Source of the DNA: an uncultured Bacteroidia bacterium
GTDB taxonomy: Bacteria > Bacteroidota > Bacteroidia > Bacteroidales > UBA932
Direction: 5' to 3'
DNA: 63,300 bases
Assembly: GCA_902792815.1 (NCBI GenBank)
Contig: CADBAY010000016.1
Span: forward strand, 1 to 63,300
The position numbers and the translations under genes were made by a program. This document shows positions 36,691-45,762 of this stretch, in pieces (position 1 is the first letter of the stretch; every line of letters begins with the position of its first letter). The notes below the pieces were generated by a model. It made no database searches. It saw only the letters and a program-made list of their open reading frames with translations, and was not told where the DNA came from.

Positions 36691-36759
36691 AATTCAATTT
36701 TTCTGCAAAGTAAAGCCATGGCCGACATATCCGCAATACCAAATTATTATGAAATAAAC

Positions 36760-36857
36760 TCTACAATAACTCTATATACGACATCTACACTAATGGCATC
36801 TACAATTGATTATCAAATACTTATAATTCTACATCAATACTTTTTAATAACTCTACA
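36760..36857. promoter_or_regulatory. Five TCTACA repeats upstream of the phosphate-type operon
   Basis: Exact TCTACA occurs at 36760, 36784, 36799, 36828 and 36852, and TCTATA at 36771 (first base of each). The first two elements are 11 bases apart. The last copy ends just before the TTTG -33 box (36862). The placement suits activator binding next to the promoter. The candidate binder is the LuxR-type output domain encoded by the second gene of the operon. Confidence 0.5.
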
Positions 36858-36861
36858 TTCA

Positions 36862-36893
36862 TTTGCTTTTCTCGTAATAATACCCTATATTTA
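36862..36893 (+). promoter_or_regulatory. Promoter of the DUF47-PiT/LuxR-porin operon
   Basis: TTTG (36862-36865), 20 bases, then TATATTTA (36886-36893), close to the TTTG / TAnnTTTG consensus with the last base changed. The start codon is 27 bases downstream. Confidence 0.6.
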
Positions 36894-36920: not shown

Positions 36921-37583
36921 ATGGGCTTGTTAGATATTTTTTCAAACAAGAACGTCGACAGACTTATAGAGAGCATTAACAAACTCCTGGGCATCGTTGA
37001 CAATTCCGTCCTGATCTTCAGGGAAGGGGTCAAGAATTACATCTACAGCGACGAGAGTGGCTTTTCGGACAATCTTTCCAGCATGGCATCGCTCGAGGCC
37101 GAGGCCGGAGCACTTTTCCACGAGATAGAAAGCACGCTTTACACCCGCGGCTACCTTATCCGCTCCAGAGGTGACATAATGCGCCTGCTCGAACGTTTCG
37201 AGCATATTGTATCCATAATAAGCGCCGACTTGATACAATTTGAAATCGAGTCTCCCACCATCCCCGCCGAGCTAAAAAAAGAGTTTATAAAACTGGCGGA
37301 ACTCGCCACTCTGTCGGTAGAAGCTTCAGTCCCAGGGGCAAAAGCTTACTTTTCGGCGCCCGGAGACGTAGCCGAAACCACCAACCGCGTCTATTTCTAC
37401 GAAAAAGAAGCCGTCAAGCTGTCACAGTCCATCAAGAGAACGGTGTTCCACGACATGGACGGCCTGAAACTCAGCGAGAAATTCCACTTGCGATATTTTG
37501 CGCTTCACATAGAAGATATTGCCAAAGCCGCCGTAAAAGTAGCCGAACAGCTATCAGTTATGACAATCAAGCGTGCGCTCTAA
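36921..37583 (+). CDS. DUF47 family PhoU-like protein
   Basis: A 220-residue, almost wholly alpha-helical soluble protein. It matches the TIGR00153/DUF47 pattern of PhoU-like proteins (N-terminal FSNKNVDRLIESINKLLG; later ELKKEFIKLAELATLSVEA; helices rich in acidic residues for metal binding). DUF47 proteins are usually encoded next to PiT phosphate transporters and regulate them. Here the next gene, 3 bases away, encodes a PiT-like membrane protein fused to a DNA-binding domain. I infer that this protein modulates that sensor. It is the first gene of the operon. Confidence 0.85.
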   Translation: MGLLDIFSNKNVDRLIESINKLLGIVDNSVLIFREGVKNYIYSDESGFSDNLSSMASLEAEAGALFHEIESTLYTRGYLIRSRGDIMRLLERFEHIVSIISADLIQFEIESPTIPAELKKEFIKLAELATLSVEASVPGAKAYFSAPGDVAETTNRVYFYEKEAVKLSQSIKRTVFHDMDGLKLSEKFHLRYFALHIEDIAKAAVKVAEQLSVMTIKRAL

Positions 37584-37586
37584 CGA

Positions 37587-39197
37587 ATGCTCCCGATCCT
37601 TTACATAGTCATCACCGCTTTACTTTCTGTCCTGTTCCTCAGCATGAGGGACTATCCGGTGGTGAGGGGCAGCATTCTCGCGTCCGGAGCAGGAGAGAAG
37701 CTCTACATGAAGATTCTCGCGCCGCTTCTGACAGCAGGCATCATCGTTTACTGCAGCCTGCGCCCGACGCCAAGCGTAGCATCGGTGTCGGAGGCGCTCT
37801 CCCTTCCGTCTGTTAAGCTCCTGCTGCCCATTGGCATCGCCACCTTGGCAAGCGCCGTCCTGACTATCCGCATAAGCCGTTTCCCGGCAGTCCAGTTTGC
37901 TTTCATCGGTGCCATAGCAGGCTTACAACGCGCATACGGAAGCGGCTGGGGATGGAATGTTGCGTCGGCATACCTCATTTCGTGGATCATTGCTCCCCTG
38001 CTTTGCGGAGTCCTGGCCGCCCTGATTTATAAATATGTAAGCATCGCCTCCCGCAAAAAAACTCATCTAATCAAACGGGAGTCACGGCTCCTTACCTTCT
38101 CCGGCATGGCGTCCCTGCTTCTGGTATGCGCCTACGCCTTCAACAATGCGGTCCTGTTCTGCTGCATGCCCATTTCTGAATACGGCACGGGGCTGCGCGG
38201 AGCAGCTTTTTCGGTGCTTATAGCTATAATTGCCACCGTTATCACCTTAAAGTCTGCCGGGGTTGAAAGAGACACCATCGCCGACTCCGACCTGGATATT
38301 ACTTCCGAATCGACCTTCTCCGTCATTCTGTCAATGGCAGTCGTGCTGGGACTCTTTTCGGCAGGCTTCCTTAGGGCGGCCGGTCTTACCGCCACTCCCC
38401 TCCCCGCAGGGTTGCTGTTCGTCGCGGCACTCACCGGAATCAGCCTCGCCAGGGGCGGAGCCTTCATCGACGGAGACAGCATAGTTAAATGCATCTTTGC
38501 TGCCGTTCTCTCGCCGATGCTGGGTGCTTTGACCTGCTATAGCCTCTGCCGCATAATAGACGGAGACATTGTAAATACGCTCATAATCCTCGGGCTTGCA
38601 GGACTGGTGGCCGGAGTGGTTCTTTACCTCCAATGGCAAGCCCGCAACAATCTCCGAAAGCAGATAGTCAGGAACCGCGAGCAGCAGGTCTACAATACGC
38701 GCAAATCGCTCTCGGCGCTGGAAGTCAAAGCAGAAATGACCGAAAAAGACCTGCTCGGAAAATTGGAAATCAAGCGCAAGGAGCTGGTAGATTTTGCGGT
38801 GGGAGTAAGCGACCAGAAGCGTTTCATGGAAAAATTCTATGATGACCTGAGGGCCATACGCGCCCTTCCCGAAGGGCCTGAGCGCAATGCCGGCCTTGAC
38901 CGCCTCCTGTCCACCCTGCGCGAGCGCATGTACTTCTCCAGGGAGATGAACGACTTCTACGCCAGGACCGAAGTCCTGCACAAAGATTTCAACATGAGGC
39001 TTGCAGAGGCCTACCCCAAGCTCACCGAAAACGAACGCCGTCTGGCGAACCTGCTCCGGCAGGGATTCTCCAGCAAATATATTGCTTCCCTTATGAACAT
39101 CACGCCCAAGAGTGCCGAGATCAACCGCTACCGCCTCAGGGCAAAGCTTGGGCTCAAACGCGAAGACAATTTAGTACAATTCATAAAATCCATTTAA
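37587..39197 (+). CDS. PiT-like membrane domain fused to LuxR-type DNA-binding domain
   Basis: A 536-residue protein. Residues 1-345 hold about ten membrane helices in two halves that each resemble the PHO4/PiT phosphate-transporter repeat. The first has FPAVQFAFIGAIAGLQRAYG and WIIAPLLCGVLAALIYKY (99-150). The second has LTATPLPAGLLFVAALTGIS and VLSPMLGALTCYSLCRII (267-324). The transport motif GANDVANA in the second half is changed to AFNNAVLF (184-191), losing the Asp. A coiled coil follows (350-400), then a helical segment and a LuxR/GerE HTH (LTENERRLANLLRQGFSSKY, 479-536). This is the output module of Bacteroidetes membrane regulators. It is most likely a non-transporting membrane phosphate sensor that binds DNA. 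Confidence 0.8.
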   Translation: MLPILYIVITALLSVLFLSMRDYPVVRGSILASGAGEKLYMKILAPLLTAGIIVYCSLRPTPSVASVSEALSLPSVKLLLPIGIATLASAVLTIRISRFPAVQFAFIGAIAGLQRAYGSGWGWNVASAYLISWIIAPLLCGVLAALIYKYVSIASRKKTHLIKRESRLLTFSGMASLLLVCAYAFNNAVLFCCMPISEYGTGLRGAAFSVLIAIIATVITLKSAGVERDTIADSDLDITSESTFSVILSMAVVLGLFSAGFLRAAGLTATPLPAGLLFVAALTGISLARGGAFIDGDSIVKCIFAAVLSPMLGALTCYSLCRIIDGDIVNTLIILGLAGLVAGVVLYLQWQARNNLRKQIVRNREQQVYNTRKSLSALEVKAEMTEKDLLGKLEIKRKELVDFAVGVSDQKRFMEKFYDDLRAIRALPEGPERNAGLDRLLSTLRERMYFSREMNDFYARTEVLHKDFNMRLAEAYPKLTENERRLANLLRQGFSSKYIASLMNITPKSAEINRYRLRAKLGLKREDNLVQFIKSI

Positions 39198-39210: not shown

Positions 39211-40605
39211 ATGCGTAAAATTCTATTCTCTCTTGCAGTCCTGCTGATGGCGGCATCGGCAGCCAACGCACAAGCTGTCAAGTATAATCAGTACGGCGTA
39301 GCCGTAGAGTCAGACGTACTTGACGCAGAGTCCCAGGATGGATTCCTGGTAATCGAATCGCCCAAGTCGGATTACAAGATCTGGTTCGACAACCGTATCC
39401 AGTTCGACGCCGGCGCTTTCTTCGGCGCCCCCGAGTGGGCCGATCCTATCGGCAACGGAATCAGCATCCGCAGGGCCCGTTTCGCCATCAAGGCCCAGGT
39501 CGACAAAAACTGGTACGGCGAATTTGACATGGACCTTGCCAACGGCCTCGTCGAGCTGAAGGACGCCATCGTACGCTATACCGGCATCCCGAACCTCGAA
39601 CTGCAGGCAGGTAACTTCAAGGAGAATTTCTCCATCCAGCGCAACTCTTCTTCACGTTACCTCATGTTTATGGAGCGTCCTATGGTATGCTCCGCTCTGG
39701 CTCCTTCGCGTCACCTCGGTATCAACGCCAAGTATGACAATCCTTGGGTCTGGCTTTCCGCCGGCTTCTTCGGACAGGAAGGCGCAGGTTCGGAGGAATG
39801 GACCAATGTAGCCGACAACAACAAAGACTTCGGCCGCGGCATCAGCTTCAAGAACAACACCGGTTACGCAGCGACCGTCAAGGCTGTATTCCGTCCTCTC
39901 TGCAAACTGGATAACGCCAGCCTGCATATCGGTGCAGCATATTCCTACCGTACCACTTTGGCCAGCATGGCCACCGGCGAATGGGGCACCTATCGCGCCA
40001 GCGCCCGCAACTCCACCAGCATCAACCGCAAGAAGTATCTTGACACCAACAACCTCAAAGGCTACGACCACAACAATCTCTGGACTGCCGAGCTCGCCGG
40101 CCACTGGGGAGGCTTCCGTTTCGAGGGTGCCTACATCGGCGACAATGTCCTGCTGAAGGACAGCAGCGATCCTGCCAGCATCACCGCCATCAACCTCGGT
40201 GGATGGTATGTTCAGGCCGGCTATCTGCTCTTCGGCGGCAAGCAGCGTTACGACTCCAAGGGAGCCAAGTACACCCGCGCCGAACGCGGCCAGAAGTGGG
40301 GCGACCTTGAACTCTGCGCCCGCTACGAATTCTGCGACCTCAACGCTCCCGCCCAGAATGTATTCGGAGGCAGCGCCGAGGCCTACACCGTCGGCCTTAA
40401 CTGGTGGGTCACCAACAACGTGCGCATGCAGCTCAACTATCAGTACAACAACAACGACCGCTACGCCAACGGCAAGAACAAACTCTTTGTCGGTCTTGAC
40501 GATGCAGGCAAGCCTACCAAGGATTATGCAAAGGTCGTCGCCCCTGCAGGAAAAGCAGGCGTAGACTACAGCATGGTTTCCCTCCGTTTCGAAGTTGACT
40601 TCTAA
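39211..40605 (+). CDS. Phosphate-selective porin O/P family protein
   Basis: A 464-residue outer-membrane barrel with signal peptide (ending AANAQ). The porin O/P pattern is YKIWFDNRIQFDAGAFFG near the start, ISIRRARFAIKAQVDKNWYG, then LELQAGNFKENFSIQRNSS and MERPM. It closes with a terminal strand ending in Phe (MVSLRFEVDF). OprP/OprO porins take up phosphate or polyphosphate across the outer membrane. It starts 13 bases after the PiT-LuxR gene and is the strongest sign that the operon concerns phosphate. Confidence 0.92.
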   Translation: MRKILFSLAVLLMAASAANAQAVKYNQYGVAVESDVLDAESQDGFLVIESPKSDYKIWFDNRIQFDAGAFFGAPEWADPIGNGISIRRARFAIKAQVDKNWYGEFDMDLANGLVELKDAIVRYTGIPNLELQAGNFKENFSIQRNSSSRYLMFMERPMVCSALAPSRHLGINAKYDNPWVWLSAGFFGQEGAGSEEWTNVADNNKDFGRGISFKNNTGYAATVKAVFRPLCKLDNASLHIGAAYSYRTTLASMATGEWGTYRASARNSTSINRKKYLDTNNLKGYDHNNLWTAELAGHWGGFRFEGAYIGDNVLLKDSSDPASITAINLGGWYVQAGYLLFGGKQRYDSKGAKYTRAERGQKWGDLELCARYEFCDLNAPAQNVFGGSAEAYTVGLNWWVTNNVRMQLNYQYNNNDRYANGKNKLFVGLDDAGKPTKDYAKVVAPAGKAGVDYSMVSLRFEVDF

Positions 40606-40618
40606 AAATCAGACAGTT

Positions 40619-41590
40619 ATGAAAAAGATATTACTTTTAGCTCCAGTGATTCTTCTGGCTCTGGCAGGCTGTGTTAAGGATGAGCCTTTCACTCCTTCCA
40701 CACCCGACACCCCTTCTACGCCCGACACCCCGACAGTAACCAAAACCCTTTTCGTTAACGAAGTGAACTGCGGCACCAAGGAGTTCGAAATCTACAATGC
40801 CTCCGACAAAGAAGCCGACATCTCCGGTTACTGCTTCACCAAAGACGATAAAGATCCTTGGGTGGTACCCGCCGGGAAGGGCAAGATTCCCGCAAAGGGT
40901 TTCCTGGTGTTCACAGCCAAGAACAGCGACCCGAACGAGGGTCCCGCTTTCGGCCTCAGCGGGACCAAAGGCTTCAAGCTTTGCATGTACAAAAGCGATG
41001 ATACTTCCGCCGGGAACCTTGTAGATATGATGGACAACAGCGCCACCGTGGAAGGCTTCCTGACCGTAGAGGACGGCTGGACCATAGGCCGTGAAACCGA
41101 CGGCGCCGATAAACTCGTACTCTTTGAAGGCGGTACCATCGGCAAGTCCAACGGGGCAAGCCCCGAGCCTGCCGGCAGGGTCTGCATCAACGAGGTCAAC
41201 TGCGGCACGAAGGAGTTCGAGATTTACAACGGAACAAGCAAAGCTGTCGACATCGCCGGCTACACCTTTACCAAAGACGGTAAAGATGCTTGGACAGTTC
41301 CTGCAGGCAAGGGCAACATCCCGGCCAAGGGATATCTGGTATTCGTAGCCAAGAACAGCGACCCGAACGTGGGACCCGCATTCGGCCTGAGCGGCACCAA
41401 GGGCTTCATTCTCTGTATGTACAAGAGCGATGACACTTCGGACGCCAACCTGGTGGACAAAATCGACAACAGCGCTACCGCCGAGACCTTCAAGACCGTC
41501 GAAGACGGAAAATCCCTCGGACGCAAGACAGACGGAGCTGACGAATGGGTTATTTTCGACACCCCCACCCTCGGATCTGCTAACAAATAG
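40619..41590 (+). CDS. Lipoprotein with two lamin-tail domains
   Basis: A 323-residue protein. A lipoprotein signal (LLALAGC) is followed by a PSTPDTP-type linker. Two tandem lamin-tail (LTD) immunoglobulin-like domains follow (about 42-165 and 185-310). Both contain NEVNCGTKEFEIYN, ISGY/IAGY-x-FTKD and LVF-x-AKNSDPN-x-GPAFGLSG, and are about 75-80% identical, so they arose by a recent duplication. LTDs occur in secreted nucleases, phosphatases and adhesins as binding domains. On its own it may bind a ligand or a partner enzyme at the surface. It starts 13 bases after the porin gene. Confidence 0.85.
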   Translation: MKKILLLAPVILLALAGCVKDEPFTPSTPDTPSTPDTPTVTKTLFVNEVNCGTKEFEIYNASDKEADISGYCFTKDDKDPWVVPAGKGKIPAKGFLVFTAKNSDPNEGPAFGLSGTKGFKLCMYKSDDTSAGNLVDMMDNSATVEGFLTVEDGWTIGRETDGADKLVLFEGGTIGKSNGASPEPAGRVCINEVNCGTKEFEIYNGTSKAVDIAGYTFTKDGKDAWTVPAGKGNIPAKGYLVFVAKNSDPNVGPAFGLSGTKGFILCMYKSDDTSDANLVDKIDNSATAETFKTVEDGKSLGRKTDGADEWVIFDTPTLGSANK

Positions 41591-41620: not shown

Positions 41621-42259
41621 ATGGCAGAACTTAAAATCGGCGAGCAAAGTAAGCCCCGCTTCGAATTCCGCAGCTTCGGTCAGTGCTTCTGCGAAGCTCA
41701 CAAACGTATGGCACGTCTTTCCGTCCCCGTCCCCGAGAAGGTGTGGGAGCGCAAGAGCGATGAGATCTACATCATCAGCGCCAAGAACGATATCAACAAT
41801 ACCAAAATCCGTGACGGCAAGATGGATATCAAGACCTATGTACAGACCGTCGACGGTTTCGAGCAGTGGAACCCTCTTATGAAAGGCGAGTTCCCCATCA
41901 GCCGCGAGGTGCTCGAAAAGGAAGTATTCCCCGCTTTCATGGTTGAGATGCCCAAGCTGGACAAAGACACCTATACCTTCGAGGAATTCATCGCCATGGT
42001 CAAAGCCAATCCCGACCTGGCCGCCGTGCGCGTCCACAAACAGCGCTTCGGATACATGGTCAACAATACCATCTGCGAGGTGGGCAATGTGCTCATCAAC
42101 GGAGCCAAGGTCGTGACTATCAACTCCGAATCAACTGAAATCGAAGACATTAAGAAGACCGTCGCCGACTGCGGGCTCGAGGGAGTAGAGAACATCAACT
42201 ACCTCCAGGCCATCAAGCGAGTCATCGGTATGATTGACAAACCTCTTGCAAACGAATAG
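41621..42259 (+). CDS. CYTH-like domain protein, family not named
   Basis: A 212-residue cytoplasmic protein without signal or membrane segments. Strand pattern and charged positions suggest a divergent CYTH/triphosphate-tunnel fold: FEFRSFG at the start, NNTKIRDGKMDIKTYVQTV, and AAVRVHKQRFGYMVNNTICEV followed by a final TEIEDI. It precedes an unmistakable CYTH gene by 4 bases. If correct, it could bind polyphosphate or nucleotides and a metal. I do not recognise a named family, and structure prediction would decide. Confidence 0.65.
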   Translation: MAELKIGEQSKPRFEFRSFGQCFCEAHKRMARLSVPVPEKVWERKSDEIYIISAKNDINNTKIRDGKMDIKTYVQTVDGFEQWNPLMKGEFPISREVLEKEVFPAFMVEMPKLDKDTYTFEEFIAMVKANPDLAAVRVHKQRFGYMVNNTICEVGNVLINGAKVVTINSESTEIEDIKKTVADCGLEGVENINYLQAIKRVIGMIDKPLANE

Positions 42260-42263
42260 CACT

Positions 42264-42740
42264 ATGGCACAGGAAATAGAGAAAAAATTCTTGGTCAAGG
42301 GCGACTTCAAGCCCGAGGCCTTCAAAGCTACCCGCATCACCCAGGGATATCTGAGCAGCGTTCCCGAGCGCACCGTCCGCATACGCGTCAAAGGTGACAA
42401 GGGATTCATCACCGTAAAGGGCATTGGCAACGCATCCGGTGCAGCACGTTTCGAATGGGAGAAAGAAATCCCCGTCGAGGATGTCCGCGCCCTGCTGGAC
42501 CTTGCCGAACCCGGCGTAATCGACAAGACCCGTTATCTTGTCAAGAACACCGACGGTGTACACACATGGGAAGTTGACGAGTTCTACGGCGACAACGACG
42601 GCCTTACGGTGGCCGAAGTGGAACTCGCCGACGAGAACGAGCCCTTCGACAAGCCCGCTTGGCTTGGCGAAGAGGTCACCGGCGACCCCAAGTATTTCAA
42701 TTCTATGTTAATGAAGAATCCTTACAAGAATTGGAAATAG
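42264..42740 (+). CDS. CYTH domain protein (triphosphate tunnel metalloenzyme)
   Basis: A 158-residue protein beginning MAQEIEKKFLV, the EXEXK signature of CYTH/TTM proteins. It then has TVRIRVKGDKGFITVKG, FEWEKEIP, KTRYLVK, WEVDEFYGDNDGLTVAEVELA. These residues line a tunnel that binds triphosphate and Mg2+. Bacterial relatives of this length are tripolyphosphatases or of unknown activity. Within a phosphate-uptake operon it may hydrolyse short polyphosphates taken up through the porin. Confidence 0.92.
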   Translation: MAQEIEKKFLVKGDFKPEAFKATRITQGYLSSVPERTVRIRVKGDKGFITVKGIGNASGAARFEWEKEIPVEDVRALLDLAEPGVIDKTRYLVKNTDGVHTWEVDEFYGDNDGLTVAEVELADENEPFDKPAWLGEEVTGDPKYFNSMLMKNPYKNWK

Positions 42741-43516
42741 TTTCTTTCAAATTTATCCTTTGCATTCTCGCGGCAGCATCTATGAACTCATGTGTCAAAG
42801 ATGCTGCCTACGGGGTGCCGGAGAACCCTTCAACGCCTCAGCCCGAGCTCTATAAGCTCGGCACGCCGAAGGCCTATGAAACAGGGGTCACCGGACTCTC
42901 CGCCATTTGCCTCAACGAGAATGAAGACGGCTTTTATGCGGCATACGACAAAGGTCTTTTATACGAAATCGGTCTCGACGGGAAGGTTAAAGGCACCGTC
43001 CCGTTCGAGACTTCCCACGACTGGGAAGGCGTCACCGTAGACCGCAGCTACGGTACTGTCTATCTCTGCGAAGAGAGGGAATGGGCAGTTTACAAGCTCA
43101 ACAAGGACAAGAAAGGCGTCACCCTGGTAGCGCAGGTACCTGTCGAAGGCGGCACAAACAACCGCGGATACGAAGGTATAGCCTCGGGGCCCGGAGTATT
43201 GTACCTTGCAAACCAAGACGCTCCCAAGCGCATTTACGTTTATTCGCTGAGCCAGGGCAAGGTGACATCCACCCTCGACATCAGTTTCGCGAAGTACCTG
43301 TCGGACGTTTTTTACGATCCCACGAGTGCAACTCTATGGATAACCGACAGTAAATCGCAAGCACTCACCAACATCAAGATGGACGGTACCGTCATAGGCA
43401 CATATGACATATCCTTCGTCACAAAGCCCGAGGGATTCTGCATCGATGCCAAACGCAAAATGTTTTGGTTCACTTGTGACCAGACCGGAAGACTACACAG
43501 CATCAGTTACGAATAA
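42731..43516 (+). CDS. SdiA-regulated (YjiK-like) beta-propeller lipoprotein
   Basis: About 261 residues. There is no in-frame ATG at the 5' end. The TTG at 42731 gives a plausible lipoprotein signal (core FKFILCILAAASMNSC) and overlaps the CYTH gene by 10 bases. The mature part has repeating propeller blades (GVTGLSAICLNENEDGFYA, DWEGVTVDRSYGTVYLCEE, NRGYEGIASG, KPEGFCIDAKRKMFWFTCD). This is the SdiA-regulated/YjiK pattern, related to phytase-like propellers. The activity is unknown. An esterase or phytase-like role would suit the phosphate context but is inference. Confidence 0.75.
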   Translation: MEIVSFKFILCILAAASMNSCVKDAAYGVPENPSTPQPELYKLGTPKAYETGVTGLSAICLNENEDGFYAAYDKGLLYEIGLDGKVKGTVPFETSHDWEGVTVDRSYGTVYLCEEREWAVYKLNKDKKGVTLVAQVPVEGGTNNRGYEGIASGPGVLYLANQDAPKRIYVYSLSQGKVTSTLDISFAKYLSDVFYDPTSATLWITDSKSQALTNIKMDGTVIGTYDISFVTKPEGFCIDAKRKMFWFTCDQTGRLHSISYE

Positions 43517-45126
43517 TGGCAACAGACACTAACACCAAGGCGGAGCAAACTTTCGATCCGCTGGACATGAACAATTACAAGATTGAGAAACTGCCCAAGA
43601 TGCAGAAATCCAAGTTCGAGGTTTGGATGGCGCGCCTTGGAGGTCCGCTGGCTATCATAGCCTTCGTGTGGATCTGTTGGTTCTGCCATATAGGCTTCAT
43701 TGACAACCTGGACACGGGCACCCTGGCCGCCACAGCCCAGAAACGCCTTGGCGTACTCGGCCCTGAAGGCTTCATCCGGGCCAACTACGCTATGCTTGCC
43801 ATATTCGTAGCCAGCCTCATCCTGTGGATGACGGAAGCCATACCGAACTATCTGACTTCCCTGCTGCTCATCCTGGGCACGGTGCTGCTCGGCGTAACCA
43901 CACAGAAAGAAGCACTGGCGCAGCTCGGACACCCCGTCATGTGGCTGAACATCCTGAGCTTCGTGCTGGCATCCATGCTGGTCAAAACCCAGTTCGCCAA
44001 ACGCCTTGCCCTGGCATTCGTCATCAAATTCGGCAAGAGCGCCAAAGGGGTACTGTGGAGTTTCCTGGTCATAAACCTGGTGTTGTCGGCATTCATATCC
44101 GCCACCACCGTCAAAGCCACCATCATGCTCCCCATCTTCATGGTTATCTGCGCCATCTACGGAGCATCCAACGGCCACCGCAACAACTTCGGCCGCAACC
44201 TGGTAATCCAGAATCTCTTCCAGGTCAACATCGGCGCAAATGCCTTCTATACCGGCAGCGGCGCCCACCTGCTGGCCATTTCGCTCATCGCCGGATTCAT
44301 AGGATCGTGCGATTTCGGATACGCCGACTGGCTGGTCGCCGTCGGCCCTATGAGCGTAATCATCCTTGTAGTTGGCCTGCTGCTTGGAATGTATGTTTTC
44401 TTCCCTATGAAGAAAGAGGAGCAGAAGCCCCAGATCGAAGGAGGCATCGAGCGCCTCAAGACCGAACTTGACGCTATGGGCAAAATGAGCGCCCAGGAAT
44501 GGAGGGCAGTGGGCATCTTCCTGGTGGTGCTCTTCCTGTGGGTCACCAAAGGCACGTTCCACAATATCGACGAGACTATCGTAGCGCTGATAGGCGCCTG
44601 CCTCGCCCTCATTCCGGGAATAGGAGTGGTCAAGTGGAACGACGTAGATATTCCCTGGCACCTCATGCTCTTCAGCGCCGGTGCATACGTCCTGGGCAGC
44701 GGCCTCAACGCCACCGACCTGCCCAACACCATGGTCAATGCCGCTTTCGACTCCCTGGGAATTGGCTCCGGCACGCCGTTCTGGGTGCTGTACGTCATCC
44801 TGACATTCCTGATGATGTATTCGGGCCTTGTATTCCAAAGCAAGACTATCCGCACCATGGTCTTCGTGCCCATCGCGCTGGGTGTAGAGGCACGCTTCGG
44901 CTTTATGCCGATGAGTCTCGCGCTGCCCGTGTCGATGCTTATCGAGCACTGTTACGTTCTGCCGTTCAACAGCAAGCCAGCAGCGCTCCTTTACAATACC
45001 AACCAATACAGCCAGACCGATGCCTTCAAATTCGGCATCACCATGATGACTTTCTCGTGGTTCCTGATTCTGCTATTCGGACAGACTTTGCTCAAGTGGT
45101 TGCACATAACACCGGGATTGTTTTAA
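43516..45126 (+). CDS. SLC13/DASS family permease
   Basis: A 536-residue membrane protein with about 11-12 helices. The DASS family pattern of two re-entrant repeats is visible (FISATTVKATIMLPI, the first substrate/Na+ motif; NSKPAALLYNTNQYS in the second half). DASS transporters move dicarboxylates, sulfate or phosphate with Na+. Its ATG overlaps the TAA of the preceding gene, and the upstream genes point to phosphate, so this may be the operon's actual inner-membrane transporter. Without the operon context, a C4-dicarboxylate substrate would be the default guess. Confidence 0.88.
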   Translation: MATDTNTKAEQTFDPLDMNNYKIEKLPKMQKSKFEVWMARLGGPLAIIAFVWICWFCHIGFIDNLDTGTLAATAQKRLGVLGPEGFIRANYAMLAIFVASLILWMTEAIPNYLTSLLLILGTVLLGVTTQKEALAQLGHPVMWLNILSFVLASMLVKTQFAKRLALAFVIKFGKSAKGVLWSFLVINLVLSAFISATTVKATIMLPIFMVICAIYGASNGHRNNFGRNLVIQNLFQVNIGANAFYTGSGAHLLAISLIAGFIGSCDFGYADWLVAVGPMSVIILVVGLLLGMYVFFPMKKEEQKPQIEGGIERLKTELDAMGKMSAQEWRAVGIFLVVLFLWVTKGTFHNIDETIVALIGACLALIPGIGVVKWNDVDIPWHLMLFSAGAYVLGSGLNATDLPNTMVNAAFDSLGIGSGTPFWVLYVILTFLMMYSGLVFQSKTIRTMVFVPIALGVEARFGFMPMSLALPVSMLIEHCYVLPFNSKPAALLYNTNQYSQTDAFKFGITMMTFSWFLILLFGQTLLKWLHITPGLF

Positions 45127-45141: not shown

Positions 45142-45762
45142 ATGGAAATAGAGTGGAATTTTATACTGCGGCTGTTCATAGCCGGCATACTCGGAGGCCT
45201 GATAGGCTTCGAGCGCGAATTCAGGGCCAAGGAAGCAGGTCTGAGAACGCATTTCATTGTGGCCCTTGGCAGCGCCCTTTTCATGCTCATCTCACAGTAT
45301 GCCTTCACCGGCCGCTTTGATGCTGCCCGTGTAGCAGCGCAAGTGGTTTCAGGCATCGGTTTCATAGGCGCCGGCGTAATCATATTCCAAAAGAACGTAG
45401 TCAGAGGTGTCACCACCGCTGCCGGTCTTTGGGTCGCCGCAGCTATTGGTCTGGCCTGCGGGGCGGGTATGTATGTAGTGGCGATCGCGGCTACTCTGTT
45501 TACCATTATGTGCCTGGAAACCATGCATATAATCACCCGGCGCTACGGCGAGAAGAGCGTGATGGTCACCATCTCCCCTGTCACCGGGGAGCAACTGACC
45601 GGCATACTGGACCAGATCCGCAAGTCGAGTTTCGAGATTGATTCCTTCAGCCTCACCGATGACTCGGCGTCAATTACGCTGCACATGCGCCAGCCCAATT
45701 ACCAGAAGACCATCGGGAAGCTTCTGGAAATCACCAAAGGCTACAAAGTAGAGATATCATAG
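45142..45762 (+). CDS. MgtC/SapB family membrane protein
   Basis: A 206-residue protein with four or five membrane helices. It has the MgtC signature GGLIGFEREFRAKEAGLRTH, VALGSALFMLIS, and VSGIGFIGAGVIIF then GVTTAAGLWVAAAIGLACG. A C-terminal ACT-like cytoplasmic domain follows (about 140-206). MgtC proteins modulate ATP synthase, Mg2+ and phosphate homeostasis; in Salmonella, MgtC affects phosphate uptake. Its position beside a phosphate-type operon is therefore notable. Confidence 0.93.
   Translation: MEIEWNFILRLFIAGILGGLIGFEREFRAKEAGLRTHFIVALGSALFMLISQYAFTGRFDAARVAAQVVSGIGFIGAGVIIFQKNVVRGVTTAAGLWVAAAIGLACGAGMYVVAIAATLFTIMCLETMHIITRRYGEKSVMVTISPVTGEQLTGILDQIRKSSFEIDSFSLTDDSASITLHMRQPNYQKTIGKLLEITKGYKVEIS

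Follow-up and report, generated by a model that had tools for sequence, protein, structure and literature searches.

The window analysed here, the whole 63,300-nt stretch from an uncultured Bacteroidales bacterium, carries on its + strand an operon in which the gene at 37587..39197 encodes a PiT-type membrane domain fused to a LuxR-type DNA-binding domain (PiT-LuxR). It is preceded by gene A (36921..37583), encoding a 220-aa DUF47/PhoU_div protein (Pfam PF01865, E 2.4e-4, 21.0 bits, below the cut-off of 24.4), whose orthologue adjoins the fusion on the 5' side in relatives, and is followed by gene C (39211..40605), a conserved neighbour encoding a member of the phosphate-selective porin family Porin_O_P (Pfam E 5.7e-37). 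Further downstream lie genes for a lipoprotein with lamin-tail (LTD) domains (gene D, 40619..41590; Pfam LTD E 2.6e-21, with the query taken from the codon after the ATG), a 212-aa protein of no known family (gene E, 41621..42259), a CYTH-domain protein (gene F, 42264..42740; Pfam E 1.1e-14), an SdiA-regulated/phytase-like propeller (42659..43516; Pfam E 2.3e-13 for 42737-43513), an SLC13/DASS sodium-coupled anion symporter (gene H, 43516..45126; Pfam Na_sulph_symp E 2.9e-54; TIGR00785 204 bits, above cut-off) and an MgtC family protein that is often terminal in the operon (45142..45762; Pfam E 4.3e-40). The propeller gene, whose start codon is uncertain and whose reading frame overlaps the CYTH gene, is missing from some operons. 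The 212-aa protein, which shares 80-95% identity with eight aligned relatives, matched nothing in Pfam below E 0.06, nothing in NCBIfam and nothing in the PDB below E 0.5, and a comparison with CYTH proteins gave no support for kinship; it serves as a marker of the operon.

A scan with this marker yielded 563 loci, of which the best 80, mostly from Bacteroidales MAGs and many of them ruminant, form a set biased towards the window's close relatives. Genes typically follow in the order DUF47, PiT-LuxR, Porin_O_P, lipoprotein, 212-aa protein, CYTH and SLC13, then often MgtC or a family of 484-487 aa (e.g. L036:16664-18127), which lies 3' of SLC13 in several operons and has no Pfam or NCBIfam match. 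The fusion occurs in 12 of the 149 genomes of the family, the window's included, where the weaker matches (G096, G029, G111, G012) were decided by inspection of their reading frames. Across the order, 27 of 393 genomes gave rows spanning both halves; setting aside the window's genome and G010 leaves 25 outside the family, and 20 of these were examined in detail, and the other five (G396, G368, G516, G518, G414) are excluded from the motif counts. Two of the 25 (G222, G518) have an internal stop in the fusion, which in G222 (locus L159) breaks the relative into two frames. Outside the Bacteroidales, no fusion was found at E<=1e-70 among the matches listed in a search of 395 genomes of the phylum, the window's own aside (33 genomes listed with their three best candidates at most, five of them from the order besides the window's own). 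The operon is conserved: DUF47 lies directly 5' of the fusion in each of the 11 family loci other than the window and each of the 20 order loci (31/31), bearing out its earlier designation as the partner of the PiT part, and the porin lies directly 3' in 11/11 family and 18/20 order loci (29/31; L158 ends there and L174 has none).

Within the window protein, residues 1-325 (37587..38561) form a degenerate PiT/PHO4 membrane domain, assigned by fold comparison of the predicted structure. An additional membrane helix (approximately residues 326-350) and a coiled coil (351-475), together at 38562..39011, were assigned from the structure model, hydropathy and charge, and a LuxR/GerE helix-turn-helix (HTH) occupies residues 476-536 (39012..39194). 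The first-pass annotation had proposed a PiT/PHO4-like membrane part with a LuxR/GerE output domain, and both proposals held: the structural comparison with PiT that it had set as a test was run and similarity was seen, rejecting a chance likeness, and the HTH scores above its Pfam cut-off. The Pfam PHO4 score of the window protein is 26.9 bits, under the curated cut-off of 33.7; the fusion at L041 reaches 184.8 bits, above it. Bias of the first model from intact rows was excluded by folding again from degenerate rows only, and model and hydropathy predict a polytopic PiT fold, one further helix and a C-terminal HTH. PiT proteins have their C-terminal end on the non-cytoplasmic side; the additional helix would thus bring the coil, which opens with a basic stretch and is predicted to be cytoplasmic, and the HTH to the inside. 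A phage or viral origin was rejected, the database viral_contigs showing no relative of the membrane part; three phage records matched the coil-HTH part only.

The fate of the transport motifs was followed in a 73-row alignment of PiT-LuxR fusions, comprising 21 motif-bearing and 52 degenerate rows, from which L098 (identical to L035), L083 (to L034) and L125 (to L032) were dropped, as was the two-frame L159, which is also outside the counts. L060, trimmed to its last 540 residues in this alignment, was excluded from A3, from alignment A4 (which holds 32 of the 52 degenerate rows) and from the identity count. Intact-type motifs read GANDAAN, PVSTSQ, GANNIAN and PVSSTQ-like; the motifs relevant to a transceptor are present in 18 of the 21 aligned relatives outside the window protein's clade, the other three being partial. 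At the same four places the window protein has SMRDYPVV, RFPAVQ, AFNNAVLF and TPLPAG, so that the GAN[DN] pair with PVST-type loops is not found and the transport signature, as the first-pass annotation had stated, is lost. That annotation had rested on the missing Asp at AFNNAVLF; the residue is indeed absent, but Asn stands in this second motif of fused and unfused subfamily members alike, including apparently intact ones, where textbook PiT has Asp, so its absence characterises the subfamily. Outside the order, some unfused members have GANH or GANN as first motif, and this motif is thus variable among presumed transporters. In three loci outside the window's clade (L172:8619-10382, L170 and L173) the first motif is partly lost (GAQGASN, GSKDTVN and GTNDTLN, respectively), and these sequences may represent independent starts of the same loss.

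Three positions stand out in the degenerate class. Asp22 (37650..37652), a remnant of the first GAND motif, is D/E in every degenerate row but L060, which lacks the region (51/52); Asn186-Asn187 (38142..38147) is the counterpart of the subfamily's second motif GANN, with N186 in 73/73 rows; and Asp237 (38295..38297), found in 52/52 degenerate rows against 2/21 others, was gained in this class. The loss falls in a single clade, all 52 degenerate rows lying together on one side of a branch (one change, SH-aLRT 84) in a coil-HTH-only tree, a quick tree that leaves the membrane part unused and has long branches flagged. Median pairwise identity in degenerate rows is 0.30 for the PiT part and 0.84 for the HTH, and in motif-bearing rows 0.62 and 0.57. 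That the membrane part is decaying without function, with the HTH alone of importance, would fit the observation that PiT identity is below HTH identity in 1274 of the 1275 degenerate pairs, but this already disfavoured reading is very improbable in view of the open frames, the positions conserved in 52/52 rows and the dN/dS of 0.09-0.22 (10 listed pairs with dS <1), and purifying selection acts on the degenerate membrane part. The pattern suggests that constraint on this part has changed rather than been lost. A complete fold under selection, with D22 and N186 remaining, could also mean that the domain still transports by altered chemistry and that the LuxR part does no more than give feedback on uptake; against this quite unlikely alternative stand the ordinary PiT elsewhere in the genome and the fact that motif 1 and the first PVST loop are kept by none of the degenerate rows in the motif table (L060 being without the first region).

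The search of 395 phylum genomes also gave 12 unfused relatives of the PiT half outside the order (L186-L197). DUF47 lies 5' of these in 12/12, the porin 3' in 11/12 and SLC13 5' of DUF47 in 8/12; on the simplest reading of this shared setting, the operon predates the LuxR tail. Seven of them (L191-L197) have a GANH or GANN first motif and long C-terminal tails without a LuxR match. The motif table and the coil-HTH tree indicate that the LuxR tail joined an apparently intact transporter first and that decay came later, in one clade, so the ancestor would have been more transceptor-like, and the relatives with motifs in place may still transport, i.e. act as transceptors. The earlier proposal that a dead transporter became a receptor therefore stands as to the lost signature and the LuxR output, a tail that has stayed strongly conserved, but not as to the order of events.

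The window protein lacks the PVST loops, and motif 1 is for the most part gone, which makes a PiT-type phosphate site questionable; the signal may be carried by DUF47. Loss of the anion-site loops speaks against direct phosphate binding by the membrane part, and raises the tentative but tenable alternative that sensing is done by DUF47, with the degenerate PiT serving just as its membrane dock, so that DUF47 binding, dependent on phosphate or a phosphorylated metabolite, toggles the LuxR domain. DUF47 evolves far more slowly than the PiT part (identities between the window and L032, L034 and L035 of 72, 72 and 69% for DUF47, and 37, 35 and 28% for PiT), and other fusion forms are consistent with a direct link. 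In L060, DUF47, a PiT-like part lacking the first PiT helix and LuxR are joined in one 711-aa frame, and in MAG G066 (L043:6219-7202) DUF47 runs in frame straight into the LuxR domain in a 327-aa protein with no PiT part, with the operon's porin 3' of it (PF01865 41.8 bits, above the cut-off of 24.4). A run of N lies inside the DUF47 part of this frame, 5' of the junction, with none at the junction itself. If the G066 form is real, the DUF47-LuxR link is what counts, but it comes from a single draft genome, the only one with this form among the 26 of its genus (G543 there has the separate arrangement), and the near-fixed N186, D22 and D237, together with the low dN/dS, exceed what a simple dock would seem to require. 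A further arrangement is seen in L103, where DUF47 and a 353-aa ORF are accompanied by a separate 162-aa LuxR-type ORF at the usual place of the fusion, possibly a split form.

As to the ligand, the DUF47 and Porin_O_P neighbours point to phosphate, while SLC13 and a weak CysP match allow for sulfate. The PHO4 family includes the sulfate permease CysP, and a reading in which another oxyanion such as sulfate is the ligand, with the operon serving its uptake, would account for an SLC13 (Na_sulph_symp) gene within the operon. This reading is unlikely given the DUF47 and Porin_O_P genes, and the CysP match (NCBIfam NF053884) of L041 amounts to 69.4 bits against a cut-off of 400; the window protein has no match to this model at E<=1. 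The rest of the window's genome contains an ordinary PiT on another contig, after a 216-aa frame taken from its place to be DUF47, no PhoU-domain match (controls 13/14) and no PstB above cut-off (best 167.1 against 343.2; controls above in 13/14). These absences agree with the proposal that the fusion replaces a PhoR/PhoB route, but the agreement is weak and a general replacement of Pst/PhoU is unsupported: a PhoU-domain match is present in 113 of the 149 family genomes, including 10 of the 12 with the fusion; among these 10, the matches listed for nine genomes fall in frames of 563-654 aa, and only G029 has one of 236 aa.

Upstream of the DUF47 gene lies a tandem direct repeat, ACTCTACA-ataa-CTCTATA (36758..36776, + strand), a sequence pattern with an 11-bp step that is a candidate operator for the LuxR domain. 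A promoter-proximal element (36850..36892, + strand) consists of a second ACTCTACA, 4 bp, a -33-like TTTG (36862-36865), 20 bp and a -7-like TATATTT (36886-36892), the last box lying 28 bp 5' of the DUF47 start codon; we take the TTTG/TATATTT arrangement to be a Bacteroidetes -33/-7 promoter. Within the window alone ACTCTACA is not significantly enriched (2 against 0.85 expected). The upstream regions of the 73 rows, reduced to 71 since those of L080 and L171 are too short, have CTCTACA as their commonest 7-mer, with 126 copies against 1.4 in dinucleotide shuffles and nine on the opposite strand, the most frequent spacing being 11 bp, i.e. one helical turn. It is present in 57/71 regions (47/51 degenerate and 10/20 motif-bearing); nine of the 10 motif-bearing regions without an exact copy hold CACTACA, CCCTACA or CTATACA, variants picked post hoc, and L174 has none. 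CTCTACA was found before the porin in none of the 22 loci that have a porin but lack DUF47 and PiT-LuxR (L054, L056, L057, L066 and 18 more). The difference between 57/71 and 0/22 (Fisher p 3e-12) involves related operons that are not independent, compares different places (before DUF47 and before the porin, respectively) and judges absence of the regulator at the locus only; 11 of the 80 scan loci fall on neither side, with no porin frame or <250 bp before the porin. The CTCTACA repeat array accompanies the regulator gene.

A CTCTACA copy just 5' of a TTTG/TTGT box, with TAnnWTW 16-23 bp further on, occurs in 26/51 degenerate and 0/20 motif-bearing regions, against a mean of 0.13 per 71 in dinucleotide shuffles. 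The 26/51 describes a fitted pattern, because a first version with a stricter -7 box gave 4/71 and was rewritten by eye from these same sequences. In its own 2.37-Mb genome the exact tandem pattern occurs once, at this operon, and sites with two mismatches number 3 against 2 in the control; with an array before this operon alone, no regulon is usable as a test. We infer that the LuxR domain binds the CTCTACA repeats 5' of the DUF47 gene, although another regulator could be the one that uses the site.

The reading that we favour, with somewhat more confidence than doubt, is that the locus encodes a LuxR-type regulator embedded in the membrane, its membrane half being a PiT anion transporter stripped of its transport signature, and that this regulator activates its own operon; the window protein is, then, probably a membrane sensor. 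In the proposed mechanism, the cytoplasmic coiled coil would let the regulator pair up and the paired LuxR domains would bind the CTCTACA repeats, where the promoter-proximal copy, lying just before the -33-like box, would give it the role of activator for the operon that encodes it (DUF47, porin, lipoprotein, CYTH and SLC13). The signal would probably be phosphate status, read via the remnant of the PiT site, via DUF47 docked on the membrane part, or via both. More broadly, and with confidence a little short of even, we suggest that the Bacteroidota hold living steps from transporter to regulator, namely unfused PiT, motif-bearing PiT-LuxR acting as a DNA-binding transceptor, degenerate PiT-LuxR with sensing but no transport, and DUF47-LuxR in a single genome, with the degenerate form being a kinase-free, one-protein receptor of phosphate status acting through CTCTACA repeats. 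As a rule, the change from transporter to receptor is deduced from its end points. Within this one phylum the unfused, fused-intact, fused-degenerate and transporter-free forms seem to coexist, and the conserved operon, the candidate DNA site and the genetic partner DUF47 make each step testable. In Bacteroidales of the rumen and gut, the system would also provide for control by an anion (probably phosphate) with no kinase involved, and it gives an opening for studying the function of DUF47.

The earlier statement that no characterised example exists holds for the fusion itself, no published report of PiT-LuxR being found in a literature search with most subscription papers outside its scope, but not for multi-helix LuxR activators in general, 12-TM examples having been characterised in Eggerthella lenta (PMC9734109). 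The regulators DadR, HcdR and CadR of this bacterium are there described as membrane-bound LuxR-type activators of metabolic genes with 10-12 TM helices. Compared by description, they resemble the window protein, for which many N-terminal membrane helices and a C-terminal LuxR HTH are predicted; they differ in being actinobacterial and catechol-responsive, whereas the membrane part of the window protein can be recognised as a PiT and its operon is of phosphate type, and the word 'transporter' is absent from the main text of that paper. Transmembrane transcription regulators (TTRs), enriched in Bacteroidota, are likewise one-component regulators acting from the membrane, and the accessible portion of the source on them gave no transporter-derived sensor (PMC10269533). 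PiT (PHO4) phosphate transporters such as 6L85 are set apart from the window protein by its lost signature motifs, additional helix, coil and HTH. The unfused Bacteroidota DUF47-PiT-Porin_O_P loci (L186-L197) share the PiT subfamily and the DUF47 gene in front of it, and in 11 of 12 cases also the porin behind it, but lack the LuxR tail, mostly keep the second motif and PVST-type loops, and have GAND, GANH or GANN as first motif. The transceptor CbrA, in which an SLC5 transporter is joined to a histidine kinase, similarly combines a transporter domain and a signalling output in one chain (PMC13022988, PMC7096432). CbrA transports histidine, whereas the window protein, judged by its motifs, probably transports nothing; and the output of CbrA is the kinase of a two-component system (PMC13022988), whereas the window protein has a DNA-binding domain on its own chain.
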